64,000 nt of DNA, from positions 1 through 64,000 of the forward strand of contig JARKPO010000087.1 of NCBI GenBank assembly GCA_029975215.1. The letters run 5' to 3'. Under the pieces are notes generated by a model. The model saw nothing but the letters and a program-made list of their open reading frames with translations, searched no databases and had not been told where the DNA came from. Of this stretch, positions 38,539 through 46,182 are shown piece after piece (within the stretch, counting starts at the first letter, position 1; each line of letters starts with the position of its first letter). The position numbers and the translations under genes are program-made. Source of the DNA: Levilinea sp. Its GTDB lineage: Bacteria > Chloroflexota > Anaerolineae > Anaerolineales > Anaerolineaceae.

Positions 38539-39009
38539 TTACCAAAAGCCGCTGTGAACCTCGCGGGCCTCCGGCAGATCCGCCGGACCTTCCACTTCCA
38601 CCGTGTGTTGGCCGCGGGCAAAGACCTCGCGGCAGGACAGCACCAGGGCGTCGTGTTCCGTGTTCGGGCCGATCATCTCGCGCAGCTGGTCTTCACCCAG
38701 GGCAAACACCACCCGCCCCACCGCTCCCCAATAAATCGCCCCGGAGCACATGGGGCACGGCTCGGTGCTGGCGTACAGGGTGCAGGTGCGCAGGACCTCG
38801 GGGGAGTAACGAGCCGTGGCGGCTCGCATCAAGTTGGTTTCGGCGTGGCCGGTGCAGTCGCGCTCGGTGATCACGGTGCTTTCGGCTTCCAGGAGGAGGC
38901 TGCCGTTTTTATCCACCAAAACCGCGCCAAAAGGAAGGTTGCCGTGCTGGCGCGCCTTTTGGGCCACCGAAACGGCCCAGCGCAAATAATACAGATCCAT
39001 GTCGTTCAT
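38539..39009 (-). CDS. Nucleoside/guanine deaminase (CDA fold)
   Basis: 156 residues. HAETNLMRAA and TEPCPMCSGAIYWGAVGRVVFAL give the zinc-binding His and two Cys and the catalytic Glu of the cytidine-deaminase-like family. The C-terminal SCREVFARGQHTVEVEGP is closer to GuaD/tRNA-type deaminases than to cytidine deaminase, and with ~156 residues guanine deaminase is my preferred reading. A minus-strand TATACT lies near 39065-39070. AGGGAG is five bases before the ATG. Confidence 0.88.
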   Translation of the reverse strand: MNDMDLYYLRWAVSVAQKARQHGNLPFGAVLVDKNGSLLLEAESTVITERDCTGHAETNLMRAATARYSPEVLRTCTLYASTEPCPMCSGAIYWGAVGRVVFALGEDQLREMIGPNTEHDALVLSCREVFARGQHTVEVEGPADLPEAREVHSGFW

Positions 39010-39185: not shown

Positions 39186-39214
39186 TTGACAAATCCACCC
39201 GCGGGCAGTAGAAT
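39186..39214 (+). promoter_or_regulatory. Promoter of the his leader and operon
   Basis: TTGACA (39186-39191), 17-bp spacer, TAGAAT (39209-39214). The predicted start at 39221-39223 coincides with the ATG of the leader peptide. Confidence 0.85.
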
Positions 39215-39222
39215 GCCACACA

Positions 39223-39276
39223 ATGAACGCCATTTTCTGCCAGTTCCATCATCATACCAGCCGCCCCCCTGCCTGA
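39223..39276 (+). CDS. hisL: his operon leader peptide (17 aa, three His codons)
   Basis: The short ORF encodes MNAIFCQFHHHTSRPPA and stops at TGA (39274-39276). Three consecutive His codons (39247-39255) lie just before sequence able to pair downstream, and a strong intrinsic terminator follows 44 nt after the stop, before hisG. This is the layout of histidine attenuators in enterobacteria, which are rarely reported outside Proteobacteria. No Shine-Dalgarno is present; the promoter places the mRNA 5' end within two bases of the ATG, so the peptide would be translated leaderless. Start, His codons and terminator are seen directly; the regulatory role is inferred. Confidence 0.8.
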   Translation: MNAIFCQFHHHTSRPPA

Positions 39277-39320
39277 CCGGAGGTCTGGTTCGTTTTACGT
39301 ACCTGACAAAGCACATCTAA

Positions 39321-39350
39321 CCCCCCGGTCTGCCGGGGGGTTTTTATTTT
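39321..39350 (+). terminator. his attenuator terminator
   Basis: CCCCCCGG (39321-39328), loop TCTG, CCGGGGGG (39333-39340), then TTTTTATTTT. It separates hisL from hisG. A competing pairing is CCGGAGG (39277-39283) with CCCCCGG (39322-39328), 6 of 7 bases, which would prevent the terminator. Confidence 0.9.
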
Positions 39351-39380
39351 CTCGAAGTTCCGTTCTGAAAGGATCGAAGG

Positions 39381-40394
39381 ATGACTGAACCCAACCCCGC
39401 CATACGCCTGTCGCTGCCCTCCAAAGGCCGCCTGGCTGAAGACTGCCTGTCTTTTTTAGCGGCCTGCGGGCTGCCCGTGTACAAGCCCAACCCGCGCCAA
39501 TACGAAGCCGTGCTGCCGGCTATCCCCGACCTGCACGTGCTCTTCCAGCGGCCCGTGGATATCGCCGTATCGGTGCGGGACGGCTCCGTGACCTTTGGCA
39601 TCACCGGCCGCGACGTGGTGGAGGAATTCAAAGGGGAAAACAGCGACGTGATCCTGCTGCACAACGCGCTCAATTTTGGCGGCTGCACGCTCAATCTGGC
39701 TGTGCCGGAAGACTGGCAGAACGTGCTGTGCGTGCCCGATCTGGCCGACCGCGCCCGACAGTTGGGCCGCCCGCTGCGCGTGGCCACCAAATACCCCAGT
39801 CTGGCCGGGCGCTTCTTGGCCCAACACAACGTGCCCTACCAGCTGGTGCACGCCGAAGGCACGCTGGAAACCGCCCCCGCCATCGGCTACGCCGACCTGA
39901 TCTGCGACATCGTCTCCTCCGGCCAAACCCTGCGCGACAACCGCCTGCGGCCCCTGCCGGATGGGGTGCTGCTGACCTCGCAGGCGGTGCTGATCGCCAA
40001 CCGGCAGGCGCTGCGGCGCAACCCGGCCGCCCTGCCCGCCGCTCGTCAGCTGCTGGAATATTTTGAGGCTTATCTGCGCGCCAGCGACAACCTGGCCGTG
40101 TTCGTCAACATGCGCGGGGATTCGCCCGAGGCCATCGCCGAGCGCATCTTCCAGGAATGTCACATCCACGGCCTGCAAGGCCCCACCATCTCGCGCGTGA
40201 TTCTGCCCCAGGACTCGCAAAGCTGGTACGCCGTGAACCTGATCGTGCCGCGGCGGGATTTATTTCAGACTATCCAGGATCTGCGCCGCATCGGCGGCTC
40301 AGGCGTGGTGGCCGTGCCGGTGACCTACATTTTTGAAGAAGAGCCGCCGCGCTACACCGCCTTGCTGACCGCGCTGAATGACCCCAACGCATAA
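39381..40394 (+). CDS. hisG: ATP phosphoribosyltransferase, long form
   Basis: 337 residues. It opens with IRLSLPSKGRLAEDCLSFL and includes FGITGRDVVEEF, the DLICDIVSSGQTLRDNRLRPL PRPP loop and a C-terminal ACT-like regulatory domain ending VVAVPVTYIFEEEPPRY. The long form does not need HisZ and is feedback-inhibited by histidine. It catalyses the first step of histidine synthesis. AAGGATCGAAGG precedes the ATG. First structural gene behind the attenuator. Confidence 0.95.
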   Translation: MTEPNPAIRLSLPSKGRLAEDCLSFLAACGLPVYKPNPRQYEAVLPAIPDLHVLFQRPVDIAVSVRDGSVTFGITGRDVVEEFKGENSDVILLHNALNFGGCTLNLAVPEDWQNVLCVPDLADRARQLGRPLRVATKYPSLAGRFLAQHNVPYQLVHAEGTLETAPAIGYADLICDIVSSGQTLRDNRLRPLPDGVLLTSQAVLIANRQALRRNPAALPAARQLLEYFEAYLRASDNLAVFVNMRGDSPEAIAERIFQECHIHGLQGPTISRVILPQDSQSWYAVNLIVPRRDLFQTIQDLRRIGGSGVVAVPVTYIFEEEPPRYTALLTALNDPNA

Positions 40395-40408
40395 ATTTGG
40401 AGACCGCC

Positions 40409-41737
40409 ATGACCCTCTTTCCCATTCTCGATGTGCCCACCGCCCAATCCAGCCTGCTGCTGCGCCGCCCGCCGGATGAAATCTCCGTGCCGCCCGCGGT
40501 ATCGCAGCGCCTGGCTGATTTGTTTGGTGAAACCCTGACCCCCGCCCAGGCCGTGCAGCGCATCCTGCGCGATGTGCGCTCTCGCGGCGACCAGGCCGTG
40601 CGCGACTGGGGCCAGCGGCTGGACGGCGCTGCCCCCGACTCGCTGCGCGTGCCGCCCGAGGCCCTGCGTCAGGCCCTGACAGAACTGCCCCCAGACCTAC
40701 GCGCCGCTTTGCAGGAATCGGCCGACCGCGTGCGCGCCTTTTACCAACGCCAGCCGCTGACTTCGTGGATCACCAACACCAGCGGCGGCACCCTGGGCCA
40801 ATGGGTGCGGCCCATTCGGCGCGTGGGCCTGTACGTTCCCGCCGGAACCGCCCCGCTGCCCTCCAGCGTGATCATGAGCGCCGTCCCCGCCCAGGTGGCT
40901 GGCGTCCCAGAGATCGTCCTGGCTGCGCCGCCCGCCCGCGGCACAGGGCGCATCGCTCCGGTGATTTTGGCCGCCGCCGCCCTGCTGGGCATTGAAGAAG
41001 TCTACGTCATGGGTGGGGCGCAGGCCGTGGCCGCCCTGGCCTACGGAACCCCCAGCGTGCCGCCCGTGGATAAAATCTTCGGCCCCGGCAACCTGTTTGT
41101 CACCCTGGCCAAGCGCGAGGTGTACGGCCTGGTGGGCATTGATTCCCTGGCCGGGCCGACCGAGACCCTCATCATCGCCGACGACACCGCCCGCCCCGAT
41201 TGGGTGGCCGCCGACCTGCTGGCCCAGGCGGAACACGATGTGCTGGCCTCGGCCGTGCTGCTGACTCCCTCGCCCCGCCTGGCCGAAGCCGTGCGCAGCC
41301 AGGTGCTGAGCCAGATGCAGTCCCTCAGCCGCCTCAGCATCCTGCAAACCTCGCTCAGCCAAAGCAGCGGGGCCGTGCTGACCCGCGATCTGGACGAGGC
41401 TGCCGCACTGGCTAACGCCTTTGGCGCAGAACACCTGTGCCTGTCGGTGGCCGACCCCTGGCGGCTGGCAGAAAAAATCACCTGTGCGGGCGGGGTCTTC
41501 CTGGGAGAACACTCCTGCGAAGTGCTGGGGGATTATGCTGCCGGCCCCAGCCATGTGATGCCCACGGGGGGATCGGCGCGCTTTTCCTCGCCGGTGAATG
41601 TCTGGGATTTCGTCAAGCTCATCAGCCTGGTAGCGCTGGATCCGCAAACCGCCGCCCAAATCAGCCGGTCGGCCGCCCGTCTGGCCGATGCGGAGGGGTT
41701 AGATGGGCACGCCGCCGCCGCGAGGATGCGCCAATGA
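40409..41737 (+). CDS. hisD: Histidinol dehydrogenase
   Basis: 442 residues. RRVGLYVPAGTAPLPSSVIMSAVPA, VYVMGGAQAVAALAYGT, DSLAGPTETLIIADDTA and GEHSCEVLGDYAAGPSHVMPTGG give the NAD and zinc sites. It oxidises histidinol to histidine in two steps. TTGGAG precedes ATG 40409; the upstream TTG at 40397 lies in the binding site and is rejected. The stop overlaps the hisC start. Confidence 0.96.
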   Translation: MTLFPILDVPTAQSSLLLRRPPDEISVPPAVSQRLADLFGETLTPAQAVQRILRDVRSRGDQAVRDWGQRLDGAAPDSLRVPPEALRQALTELPPDLRAALQESADRVRAFYQRQPLTSWITNTSGGTLGQWVRPIRRVGLYVPAGTAPLPSSVIMSAVPAQVAGVPEIVLAAPPARGTGRIAPVILAAAALLGIEEVYVMGGAQAVAALAYGTPSVPPVDKIFGPGNLFVTLAKREVYGLVGIDSLAGPTETLIIADDTARPDWVAADLLAQAEHDVLASAVLLTPSPRLAEAVRSQVLSQMQSLSRLSILQTSLSQSSGAVLTRDLDEAAALANAFGAEHLCLSVADPWRLAEKITCAGGVFLGEHSCEVLGDYAAGPSHVMPTGGSARFSSPVNVWDFVKLISLVALDPQTAAQISRSAARLADAEGLDGHAAAARMRQ

Positions 41738-42831
41738 TGCCCCTGCCCGCCCGCATCCTCAACCTGCCGCCCTATGCCCCCGTGGAGCCGCTGGACGTGC
41801 TTTCGGCGCGCTGGGGACGGCCGGTGGACTCTCTGGTCAAGCTGGACGCCAACGAGAACCCCTACGGCCCCGCGCCGCGCGTGCGGCAGGCGCTGGCCGA
41901 GCTGCCCTGGGTGAATATCTACCCCGACCCCGAAAGCCGCGCCCTACGCGCCGCCCTGGCGGATTTCACCGGCGTGCCCGCCGAATTTCTCCTGGCGGGG
42001 GCGGGCGCGGACGAGCTGATCGACCTGCTGCTACGCGTCTTGCTGGAACCCGGCGACCGGGCAGCCGTGTGCTCGCCGACCTTCGGCATGTACGCCTTCG
42101 GGGCACGCCTGAACGCCGGTCATGAGATGGATATCCCCCGCCGTGCGGATTTTTCCCTGGATCTGCCTGCCCTGCAGGCCGTATGCGCGCAGCAGCGGCC
42201 CAAAGTGCTCTTTTTGGCCAACCCCAACAACCCCGACGGTCAGCTCCTGACCGCAGAGGAGATCGAAACCCTGCTGGCGCTGCCCACCCTGGTGGTGCTG
42301 GATGAAGCTTACATCGAATTCAGCCACAGCCCCAGCCTGGGCGCAGCCCGCTCCTGCATCCAGCAGGTGCCTCAGCGCGATAATTTGATCGTGCTGCGCA
42401 CATTCAGCAAATGGGCGGGGCTGGCCGGGCTGCGGGTGGGCTACGGGGCCTTTCCAGGCTGGCTGCTGCCCGCTTTGTGGAAAGCCAAACAGCCCTACAA
42501 TGTCAACATCGCAGCCAGCGCCGCCGCCCTGGCCTCGCTGGAAGAGCGCGTCCTGCTGGGTGAGCGTGTGGGGCAGATCTGCGCGGAACGCGAACGCCTG
42601 CGCCAGGCCCTGAGCGCCTTCCCCGGCCTGGAACCGCTGCCAAGCGCGGCCAATTTCATCCTCTGCCACGTGTCGGCCCGCCCGGCGGCCGAGCTGCACC
42701 AGGCCTTGCTGGAACGCGGCATTCTGGTGCGGCGCTACGCCACTCCCCGCCTGCAAAATTACCTGCGTATCAGCGTGGGCCGTCCGCAAGACAGCCGCGC
42801 CCTGCTGGACGCACTGGAGGAACTGCTATGA
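41734..42831 (+). CDS. hisC: Histidinol-phosphate aminotransferase
   Basis: 365 residues, class I/II aminotransferase. KLDANENPYGPAPRV at the N-terminus, NPNNPDGQLL, VLDEAYIEFS and RTFSKWAGLAGLRVGYG (PLP lysine) are HisC motifs. It converts imidazole-acetol phosphate to histidinol phosphate. The ATG overlaps the hisD stop as ATGA; the same frame is open upstream to 41437 but inside hisD and without family similarity. Confidence 0.95.
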   Translation: MMPLPARILNLPPYAPVEPLDVLSARWGRPVDSLVKLDANENPYGPAPRVRQALAELPWVNIYPDPESRALRAALADFTGVPAEFLLAGAGADELIDLLLRVLLEPGDRAAVCSPTFGMYAFGARLNAGHEMDIPRRADFSLDLPALQAVCAQQRPKVLFLANPNNPDGQLLTAEEIETLLALPTLVVLDEAYIEFSHSPSLGAARSCIQQVPQRDNLIVLRTFSKWAGLAGLRVGYGAFPGWLLPALWKAKQPYNVNIAASAAALASLEERVLLGERVGQICAERERLRQALSAFPGLEPLPSAANFILCHVSARPAAELHQALLERGILVRRYATPRLQNYLRISVGRPQDSRALLDALEELL

Positions 42832-43439
42832 CCCTTTCCCCTGAGCCTGACCGCACGGCCGAGGTGCGGCGCACAACCGCCGAAACCGATATCACCGTGC
42901 GCATCAATTTGGACGGCAGCGGCCAGCACAAGCTCTCCACCGGCGTCGGCTTTTTGGATCACATGCTGGCGCAGCTGGCCTGCCACAGCCTGGTGGACAT
43001 CGAGGTACAGGCGCGCGGCGATCTGCACATTGACGCTCACCACACAGTGGAAGACTGCGCCCTGGCCCTGGGCAGCGCCTTCCACCAGGCCCTGGGGGCG
43101 CGCACCGGAATCCAGCGCATGGCCTCGGCCTGGGTACCGATGGATGAAGCCCTGGCCTTCGCCGCCCTCGATTTTTCCGGTCGGGGGGTGGCGGTAATCG
43201 AGGCCGAATTCAGCGCGCCCAGCCTGGGCAGCCTGCCCACCAGCCTGATCGCCCACTTTTTGGACTCCTTCGCGCGCGAAGCCGGGGTGAACCTGCACGC
43301 GCGCATCTGCGCCGGGCGCGACGATCACCACAAGGCCGAGGCCCTGTTTAAGGCCCTGGCGCGCGCCGTGCGCGAGGCTGTGCAGCGCGACCCGCGCCGC
43401 GCGGGCATTCCCTCTACGAAAGGCAGACTGCAGCCATGA
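42828..43439 (+). CDS. hisB: Imidazoleglycerol-phosphate dehydratase
   Basis: 203 residues, monofunctional. AEVRRTTAETDITVRINLDGSG, GVGFLDHMLAQLACHS, DAHHTVEDCALALG and GRDDHHKAEALFKAL carry the two HHxxE-type manganese sites. No phosphatase domain is fused, so histidinol-phosphate phosphatase (hisN/hisJ type) must be encoded elsewhere. Overlaps hisC and hisH by 4 bp each. Confidence 0.96.
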   Translation: MTLSPEPDRTAEVRRTTAETDITVRINLDGSGQHKLSTGVGFLDHMLAQLACHSLVDIEVQARGDLHIDAHHTVEDCALALGSAFHQALGARTGIQRMASAWVPMDEALAFAALDFSGRGVAVIEAEFSAPSLGSLPTSLIAHFLDSFAREAGVNLHARICAGRDDHHKAEALFKALARAVREAVQRDPRRAGIPSTKGRLQP

Positions 43440-44053
43440 ACCCGCGCCGAGTCTCTTTGATTGACGCTGGAACGGGCAATCTGCGTTCGGTGGAAAAAGC
43501 CCTGCGCGCCCTGGGGGCTGAGATTGAAGCCGTGCGCCGCCCCGAAGATCTGCGCCCTGGGCAGCGCATCCTGCTGCCGGGGGTGGGGGCCTTCGCCAGC
43601 TTTATGGCCGGGCTGCGCGCCGCCGGGTTGGATCGGGCCGTGCGGCAGGCCGTGCAGCGCGGCGACCCGCTGCTGGGCATCTGCGTGGGCATGCAGGCCC
43701 TCTTTGAAAGCAGCGAAGAAATGGGCGAATGTGCCGGGCTGGGGCTGCTGCCGGGCCGCGTGCAGCGCTTCCCCGACCTGCCGGGGCTCAAAATTCCCCA
43801 CACCGGCTGGAACAGCCTGCACCAGACCCGGCCCAGCCCCCTGCTGGATGGGCTGGGGGAAGAGCCTTACGTGTACTATAACCACAGCTACCTGTGCCAG
43901 GCCGCACCAGAAGACGAGGCCGCCGAAAGCCTGTACGGCCAGGCCTTTGCCAGCGTGGTGCAGCGCGGACGTTTGTACGGCGTGCAGTTTCACCCCGAAA
44001 AGAGTCAGCGGGTGGGGCTGCGGTTTCTGGATAACTTTCTGACCCAAGGATGA
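43436..44053 (+). CDS. hisH: Imidazole glycerol phosphate synthase glutaminase subunit
   Basis: 205 residues, class I glutamine amidotransferase. LIDAGTGNLRSVEKAL, LGICVGMQALFESSEE (nucleophile Cys) and VQFHPEKSQ (His-Glu) form the catalytic triad. It supplies ammonia to HisF. The ATG overlaps the hisB stop. Confidence 0.96.
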   Translation: MNPRRVSLIDAGTGNLRSVEKALRALGAEIEAVRRPEDLRPGQRILLPGVGAFASFMAGLRAAGLDRAVRQAVQRGDPLLGICVGMQALFESSEEMGECAGLGLLPGRVQRFPDLPGLKIPHTGWNSLHQTRPSPLLDGLGEEPYVYYNHSYLCQAAPEDEAAESLYGQAFASVVQRGRLYGVQFHPEKSQRVGLRFLDNFLTQG

Positions 44054-44061
44054 GGTGAATC

Positions 44062-44808
44062 ATGAGCGTTTTTATTCCCTTCCCCGCCATTGACCTGCGC
44101 CGCGGACAGGTGGTGCGGCTGCGCGGCGGCGCGCCCGGCAGTGAAACCGTCTTCAGCAGCGACCCGGCCGAATGCGCCCGGCGCTGGATTGAGGCCGGAG
44201 CGCACTGGCTACATGTGGTGAATCTGGACGGCGCCTTTGGCGAAGACGATGACGCCAACCGCACCGCCCTGGGCGGCATCATCAAAACCGCTGCAGAACT
44301 GGGCGCAGCCGTGCAGTTCGGCGGCGGCCTGCGCACCGAAGAGGCCGTGCGCGCCGCCCTGGAAGCCGGGGTGCAGCGCGCCGTTTTGGGCACCAGCGCG
44401 GTGGAAAACCCCGATATGCTGGCGGGCGTGCTGGATCGCTGGGGGCCAGAGCGCATCGCCGCGGGTGTGGACGCGCGCGAGGGGGTGGTGTATGTGCGCG
44501 GCTGGCGCACGGGCAGCGGCTTTGATCCCCTGTCGGTGGCCCGCCGCCTGCAGGACGCGGGTGTGCGCTGGGTGCTGTATACCGACATCGCCCGCGACGG
44601 GCTGAACCAGGGGCTGAACCTGAGCGTGGCTCAAAGCCTGGCCAGCGGCACCGCCCTGAATGTGGTCGCTTCTGGGGGCGTGCGCAGCCTGAGCGAGGTG
44701 GAAGAAGCTCGCCGCGCTGGCCTGGCGGGCGTCATCGTGGGGCGCGCCCTGTACACCGGCCAGATGGACCCCCAGGCGCTGTTTGCCCTGGAGACGCCCG
44801 CATGTTAG
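44062..44808 (+). CDS. hisA: ProFAR isomerase
   Basis: 248 residues, (beta-alpha)8 barrel. [18 protein letters not shown] carries the N-terminal catalytic Asp, [15 protein letters not shown] the second Asp, and [33 protein letters not shown] the phosphate-binding end. It isomerises ProFAR to PRFAR. GGATGAGG precedes the ATG. Its end overlaps hisF by 7 bp. Confidence 0.95.
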
Positions 44809-45569
44809 CCCGCCGCATCATCCCCTGCCTGGATATTCACGCCGGCCGGGTGGTGAAAGGGGTCAACTTTGTCCACCTGCGCGACGCCGGTGATGCCGTG
44901 GAACAGGCCGCGGCCTACGATCAGGCGGGGGCGGATGAACTGGTCTTTCTGGATATCAGCGCCACGGTGGAGGGTCGCGACACGATGGTGCAGGTGGTGG
45001 AGCGCGTGGCCGAGCGGGTGTTCATGCCGCTGACGGTGGGTGGCGGCATCCGCACGGTGGAAGATATGCGCCGCCTACTGCTGGCCGGGGCCGACAAAAT
45101 CAGCCTGAATTCCGCCGCCGTGCGTAGCCCGCAGCTGATCGCCGCGGGGGCCGAGCGCTTCGGCAGCCAGTGTATGGTGCTGGCGGTGGACGCGCGCCAG
45201 CACAGCCCAGGCCGCTGGCGGGTGGTGATTGACGGCGGGCGCACCGACACCAGCCTGGACGTGGTGGACTGGTGTCAGCAGGCCGTGGCCCTGGGCGCAG
45301 GGGAGATTCTCTTAACCAGCATGGACCGCGACGGGACCCTGGCGGGCTACGACCTGGCGCTGACCCACACCGTGGCCCAGGCCGTGCCCGTGCCCCTCAT
45401 CGCCTCGGGCGGGGCGGGGCGCTGGCAGGATTTTGCCGATGTGCTTTCCAGCGGCGGTGCGGATGCGGCCCTGGCGGCCTCGCTGTTTCATGACGGCGTG
45501 CTGGCCATCGGCGACCTCAAGCAGCGGCTGGCCGAAGCTGGCTTGCCGGTGCGGCGGGAGGTGCGGTGA
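44802..45569 (+). CDS. hisF: Imidazole glycerol phosphate synthase cyclase subunit
   Basis: 255 residues. [20 protein letters not shown] (Asp11) and MVLAVDARQ (Asp130) are the catalytic residues, [29 protein letters not shown] and [12 protein letters not shown] the phosphate sites. With HisH it closes the imidazole ring and releases AICAR. Overlaps hisI as TGATG. Confidence 0.96.
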
Positions 45570-45901
45570 TGCCCCCCATTCAATTTGACGACCGCGGGCT
45601 GATCCCCGCCGTATTGCAGGACGCCGACAGCGGCCAGGTGCTGATGTTGGCCTGGATGAACGCAGAAGCCCTGCGGCAGACCCAGGCGCGCGGGCAGGTG
45701 GTCTTTTGGTCGCGCAGCCGCCAGGAATTGTGGCACAAAGGGGCCACCAGCGGCCATACCATGCAGGTGGTGGAGCTGCGCCTGGACTGCGACAGCGACG
45801 CCCTGCTGGTGCGCGTACGCCCGAATGGTCCGGCCTGTCACACCGGCGCGGTCAGCTGTTTCTTTCAATCCCTGCCTACTCAGCCGCAGAATGAGGAGTG
45901 A
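45569..45901 (+). CDS. hisI: Phosphoribosyl-AMP cyclohydrolase
   Basis: 110 residues, single domain. [36 protein letters not shown] and [12 protein letters not shown]...[11 protein letters not shown] give the zinc Cys residues. It opens the purine ring of PR-AMP. ATG 45569 overlaps the hisF stop. HisE is a separate gene, unlike the fused HisIE of enterobacteria. Confidence 0.95.
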
Positions 45902-45903
45902 GC

Positions 45904-46182
45904 ATGAACATCAACCAATTATTTGCTGTCATCCAGGCGCGGCGCAGCGCCCCGCCGGAAGAATCCTACACCGCCCGCCTGACGGCCGCCGGGGAAGATG
46001 AAATCTTAAAGAAAGTGGGGGAAGAAGCCGTGGAAGTGATTCTGGCGGCCAAAGGACAGGGGCAGGCCCGCCTGGTGGAGGAACTGGCCGACCTCACCTA
46101 TCACGCCCTGGTGCTGCTGGCCGTGCGCGGGCTGACCCCCCAGGATGTGGAGGCTGAGCTGGCCCGCCGCCACGCAGGTTAG
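45904..46182 (+). CDS. hisE: Phosphoribosyl-ATP pyrophosphatase
   Basis: 92 residues, all-alpha MazG-like fold. [21 protein letters not shown] and [21 protein letters not shown] contain the magnesium-binding acidic residues. It removes pyrophosphate from PR-ATP. AATGAGGAG precedes ATG 45904. Last gene of the operon; its stop overlaps the convergent DUF3592 gene by 4 bp. Confidence 0.95.

Follow-up and report, generated by a model that had tools for sequence, protein, structure and literature searches.

A predicted histidine attenuator with a leaderless or nearly leaderless leader peptide upstream of the his operon in Anaerolineae

Does the DNA upstream of hisG in an anaerolineal genome encode a ribosome-mediated histidine attenuator, and is its leader peptide translated from a transcript that begins at, or within a few bases of, the leader ATG? 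The question was raised by a sequence-only reading of the 64,000-nt stretch of DNA analysed here (the window; contig JARKPO010000087.1), in which a promoter, an adjacent ATG, a His-codon peptide and a terminator were interpreted as a peptide-based, apparently leaderless his attenuator. All of the elements that it named lie where it placed them in the Levilinea saccharolytica window sequence. The closest public relative is L. saccharolytica KIBI-1 (HisG 99% identical), and by its sequence the window genome is L. saccharolytica or very close to it. The operon downstream of the leader, hisGDCBHAFIE, is complete and lies on the plus strand: the first gene, hisG, encodes the long form of ATP phosphoribosyltransferase (39381-40394; TIGR00070 and TIGR03455) and is followed by hisD, hisC, hisB, hisH, hisA, hisF, hisI and hisE (40397-46182). 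The divergent neighbour of the operon (38539-39009, minus strand) encodes a CMP/dCMP-deaminase-like protein with a sub-threshold TadA match.

The promoter of the leader, on the plus strand like all of the elements that follow, consists of a -35 element, TTGACA (39186-39191), and, 17 nt after it, a -10 element, TAGAAT (39209-39214), which ends 8 nt before the leader ATG. This pair matches 11 of 12 consensus positions and is the top promoter-like (sigma-70-like) site within the surrounding 10.6 kb; TTGNNN is found at the same place in most relatives. The hisL-like leader ORF, MNAIFCQFHHHTSRPPA (39223-39276), starts with an ATG at 39223 that has no Shine-Dalgarno (SD) motif and stops with a TGA at 39274-39276. 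It contains three His codons only, the consecutive CAT CAT CAT at 39247-39255, at which a ribosome is predicted to stall if His-tRNA is uncharged; its Pro codons contribute the CCCCCC at 39264-39269, which might capture the terminator 3' arm. An intrinsic terminator (39319-39349) precedes hisG. Its GC-rich hairpin, AACCCCCCGG-TCTG-CCGGGGGGTT (39319-39342), has a 10-bp stem (39319-39328 with 39333-39342), a loop at 39329-39332 and a stability of -20.4 kcal/mol, and is followed by a T-run to 39349. When the window leader was folded alone, it was no better than shuffled sequence (z -0.59). Taken by itself, the window could owe its three His codons and hairpin to chance, and the locus could be no more than a constitutive promoter, a chance mini-ORF and an ordinary terminator. 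Since the single leader fold was unremarkable, significance was sought in relatives.

A HisG protein scan gave 80 loci, most of them labelled Anaerolineae or Chloroflexota and including Anaerolineales, Thermoflexales and Ardenticatenales; the HisG proteins of the compared loci are 54-99% identical to that of the window. A mini-ORF was counted if it began with ATG, lay no more than 360 nt from hisG and contained a run of three or more His codons, with dinucleotide shuffles as the control. Such an ATG...HHH mini-ORF is present upstream of hisG in 63 of the 78 loci with enough upstream DNA, against 0.34 expected, and further leaders have broken or shorter His runs (HAHA, HRH, HTHAH; L028, L073, L077). 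Of 70 leaders, 69 have an intrinsic terminator, which lies 57-89 nt downstream of the His codons. The leader occurs in the family, the order and other orders of the class. Comparison of hisG upstream regions had been named in the sequence-only reading as a check that could refute it; His codons and terminator both proved to be conserved. These counts, together with two covarying helices (below), make a chance mini-ORF between a constitutive promoter and an ordinary terminator extremely improbable.

Not every locus has the leader in the same place. In L035 and L066 it lies further upstream, with other sequence between leader and hisG; L045 is cut by a contig end and L036 is partly cut; and no leader was found in the stretch inspected of L011, L042 or L054. 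In L066 the intervening sequence includes a four-helix-bundle-like (23S rRNA IVS-type) gene between the his terminator and hisG (locus position 2001), so the attenuator would control that gene too. A sample of the phylum included two loci, L135 and L167, that represent more distant families within the class and lack the leader; none of the inspected hisG loci of other classes showed the leaderless form. His-run ORFs (MLISPRSSTIEIHRHHHHHIRG; VRAKTQSNNCTASKLYNHHHHEQG) lie upstream of hisG in two loci outside the class, L134 (at about 1050-1250, numbered on the reverse complement) and L129 (at about 1100-1250). These mini-ORFs lie well downstream of a promoter-like site and are followed by complementary GAGGGTGAGGG- and CACCCC-type stretches; judged by these features, they look like led his leaders (SD-led or with a long 5' UTR), a different version.

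The distance between promoter and leader is as conserved as the leader itself. The ATG closest to the His codons was taken as the leader start, and the gap from the end of the best -10-like hexamer to that ATG was measured. In 55 of 63 leaders this gap is 6-11 nt, compared with 5.3 expected from shuffles. Its mode is 10 nt (36 of the 63), and most leaders have a TTGACA-like -35 element 16-18 nt further upstream of the -10. The promoter aimed at an adjacent ATG, as first described for the window, is therefore kept in most relatives. One of the 63 leader ATGs has an SD-like tetramer before it, compared with 61 of 63 hisG starts, which indicates that these genomes use SD sequences, though not at the leader. 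Leaderless genes are conventionally recognised in silico by a TANNNT (TA-like) box about 10-12 bp upstream of the start codon (PMC3160421), and the his leader has a TANNNT -10 box at about this distance and no SD. From the usual distance between a -10 box and a start site, we infer a true 5' end that would leave a 5' UTR of 0-2 nt in the window and mostly 2-4 nt in the relatives, making the leader leaderless or nearly so; the modal gap of 10 nt fits a 5' UTR of 2-4 nt as well as it fits a true 5'-AUG.

An attenuator that is real but conventionally led, with a start further upstream and a conserved TANNNT that is not a working promoter, would accommodate the handful of the 63 leaders in which the best -10 match precedes the ATG closest to the His codons by 15-44 nt. 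Of the eight exceptions, however, several regain the spacing through an earlier in-frame ATG (e.g. L043, L046, L053, L058), and a conventional leader is at odds both with a -35/-10 pair conserved at 16-18 nt spacing and at a fixed distance from the ATG and with the lack of an SD before 62 of 63 leader ATGs where hisG has one in 61 of 63. We consider this alternative improbable. The predicted leaderless arrangement, with a 5' UTR of about 0-4 nt, is the rule in the class and not peculiar to the window genome. In the window genome as a whole, the TTGAC...-10...ATG pattern occurs 124 times, versus 48 times for a reversed control pattern, so further leaderless genes are likely.

Three segments of the window leader can form alternative helices. 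Segment 1, GCCAGTTCC (39239-39247), pairs with segment 2, GACCGGAGGTCTGGT (39275-39289), through GCCAG:CTGGT plus TTCC:GGAG, its partner within segment 2 being 39279-39289. Segment 2 is also the 5' strand of the predicted antiterminator: its core, GACCGG (39275-39280), pairs with CCGGTC (39325-39330) in segment 3, the terminator 5' arm (39319-39330). Each leader segment was scored against its own partner and against partners swapped from other leaders, and the set was dereplicated at 72% identity to 26 leaders; the permutation tests reduce, and do not fully remove, the effect of relatedness. For the antiterminator (2:3), own partners gave -18.1 kcal/mol and swapped partners -14.2 kcal/mol, with none of 20000 permutations as good; among the 26 dereplicated leaders, z was -6.6 (0/50000). 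The 2:3 cores differ between leaders and stay complementary (GACCGG/CCGGTC, GGTCGGG/CCCGACC, TCGAAGG/CCTTCGA, GATTCGGG/CCCGAATC and GGTCAGG/CCTGACC). For the protector (1:2), the region between the start codon and a point shortly after the His codons was scored as segment 1 against the 3' part of segment 2; the dereplicated leaders gave z -6.96 (0/50000), and two control regions were not significant (z -0.4 and -1.7). On these tests, the mutually exclusive 1:2 and 2:3 helices covary across lineages, and protector 1:2, antiterminator 2:3 and terminator 3:4 make up the classical triad.

One pairing first suggested for the window was that of CCGGAGG (39277-39283) with the terminator 5' arm; CCGGAGG is present and lies within segment 2, whose pairing with that arm covaries. 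Another joined ACCAG (39256-39260), directly after the His codons, with CTGGT (39285-39289). Both are present and can pair, but the covarying helix uses segment 1 (39239-39247), which is upstream of the first His codon and overlaps it; ACCAG is a second CCAG copy, able to compete for CTGGT. A local hairpin after the His codons was also tried as the protector. It was not stabler than shuffles (mean z -0.56) and was weakly partner-specific (z -2.7), and was therefore replaced by the 1:2 helix, which begins before the His codons.

In one subfamily (L010, L012, L016, L017, L019-L024, L026, L029, L030, L035, L038 and L040), the peptide HHHHIQPPHGREVYVRVP and the DNA encoding it have hardly changed, even outside the pairing core (GGTCGGGAGGTTTATGTGCGCGTACCTG). 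In these loci a GTGCGCG is complementary to a CGCGCAC before the His codons. Conservation of peptide beyond the His codons is what would be expected if the His-rich leader acted by translation control, or as a trans-acting peptide or RNA, rather than through a terminator/antiterminator switch, and trans-acting leader peptides are known (Sinorhizobium meliloti peTrpL; PMC7298713). The conserved codons, however, overlie segment 2 and the segment-1 partner and can be explained by RNA pairing, and a terminator with a T-run, whose 5' arm covaries with segment 2, is present in 69 of 70 leaders. We regard action by translation or in trans as very unlikely.

Very probably, then, the locus is a ribosome-mediated his transcription attenuator whose leader peptide would be translated from a leaderless or nearly leaderless transcript; the apparently leaderless, peptide-based reading of the window is supported by the conserved ATG adjacency and SD absence and by the covariation of both helices. 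The promoter/ATG adjacency, His codons, missing SD, terminator, covarying helices and operon are read from sequence and comparison, and we infer from them the translation of the leader, the ribosome footprints and the response to histidine. A 70S ribosome would load on an AUG that lies at the 5' end or at most a few nt from it. If charged His-tRNA were plentiful, the ribosome would reach the stop codon at 39274, located at segment 2, and mask that segment; the 3:4 terminator would then form, and transcription would end before hisG. Without translation, 1:2 would pair and the terminator would likewise be free to form. If charged His-tRNA were scarce, the ribosome would stall at the CAT codons (39247-39255) and cover segment 1 (39239-39247), leaving segment 2 (from 39275) free to capture the terminator 5' arm through GACCGG:CCGGTC; with this antiterminator formed, the polymerase would read through into hisGDCBHAFIE. 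A median of 18.5 nt separates the last His codon from the core of segment 2. Where the stop codon falls with respect to that segment differs between subfamilies, so masking by a ribosome at the stop codon fits some of them better than others.

Leaderless mini-ORFs may serve other genes as well. Scanning the matches to the leaderless pattern in the window genome revealed one followed by an intrinsic terminator before a dihydroorotase-like amidohydrolase gene (L180; G000:C31:96900-97900, minus strand); Pfam assigns the gene product to the amidohydrolase family, and the name dihydroorotase is our reading of its sequence. The same arrangement (TTGAC-17-TANNNT, 5-11 nt, ATG, terminator) is found in 15 of 22 loci, with 0.08 expected (L180, L203-L218). 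Eight of the 15 have an ORF that continues through the terminator T-run, resembling E. coli pyrBI, where the ORF is translated through the terminator; the pyrBI attenuator senses UTP. These leaders make it more probable that the class uses leaderless attenuation as a general practice. Leaderless mini-ORFs might be a general format for attenuation sensors in Anaerolineae, with His codons for his and a pyrBI-like, coupling-sensitive form for the dihydroorotase-like gene, a tentative proposal to which we lean slightly less than we lean away. If it is true, the whole class regulates several pathways through 70S loading on the 5'-terminal AUG of nascent RNA.

Two other searches beyond his gave negative outcomes. 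A leaderless-looking ORF, MLTANLHLHYYIYMEHRIAP, with three Tyr residues in YYIY, precedes an SNF/NSS transporter gene (L186; G000:C50:247650-248700, minus strand), together with a segment-2-like GACCGGCGGAGG and a terminator, CTCCCCGGTC...CCGGGGAG. As a Tyr attenuator of the transporter it was rejected, the Tyr codons not being conserved in the two relatives found. No leaderless Trp peptide was seen at the trpE loci of relatives in a weak scan in which the loci were not all oriented. There was no TrpE match at E <= 0.001 in the window genome (G000) or its one congener, suggesting tryptophan auxotrophy or a divergent pathway.

In classical attenuation, which was worked out on SD-led leaders, the first ribosome and RNA polymerase must be closely timed to each other. 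In a leaderless, class-wide version, it is a 70S ribosome loading on a freshly emerged 5' AUG that has to keep this timing, and the his leaders would be a natural, testable system for the coupling of leaderless initiation to transcription. A large environmental class also gains a candidate his regulator, an RNA family absent from Rfam. At the gathering threshold Rfam had no match on the window, and no RF00514 match in 17 relatives; the RF00514 (His_leader) model itself scored 22.9 bits on the window against a cut-off of 49.

Neither a leaderless his attenuator nor any Chloroflexota his attenuator was found in the literature searched, which is thin on subscription papers. A survey of Rfam motifs, with five Chloroflexi genomes among those covered, suggested that amino-acid attenuators may stem from gamma-proteobacteria, with few transfers (PMC3766115). 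The his attenuator of E. coli and Salmonella (RF00514) has the same His-codon peptide, exclusive 1:2, 2:3 and 3:4 helices and terminator before the first his gene; the enterobacterial leader, however, is SD-led and has seven His codons, whereas that of Anaerolineae has no SD and a predicted 5' UTR of 0-4 nt. Peptide-based his attenuation, which the sequence-only reading described as established for enterobacteria, has already been proposed outside them too: such attenuators are proposed in Firmicutes (the B. cereus group, Peptostreptococcaceae and Erysipelotrichales; PMC9413887), which similarly have 3-5 His codons and a terminator and antiterminator identified by comparative genomics. They belong to another phylum, and leaderless initiation is not among the features described in the text consulted. 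Leaderless attenuators are represented by the polycysteine ORFs of mycobacteria (Canestrari et al. 2020, as cited in PMC9031893 and PMC13236596), which likewise combine a leaderless short ORF, a codon run of the sensed amino acid and control of a downstream operon. A review places this control at the level of translation of the genes downstream, whereas a terminator/antiterminator is predicted for the his leaders of Anaerolineae. The S. meliloti attenuator RNA rnTrpL starts with the trpL ATG and has a transcription terminator, but responds to tryptophan and belongs to the Alphaproteobacteria (PMC7298713). Corynebacterium glutamicum has some leaderless his mRNAs, and attenuation has been proposed for hisDCB; there, in contrast, no His-rich peptide is described and a T-box is proposed (PMC3896937). 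Ribosome-mediated attenuation and leaderless attenuators are already known, and the novelty is the predicted leaderless his version in Anaerolineae.
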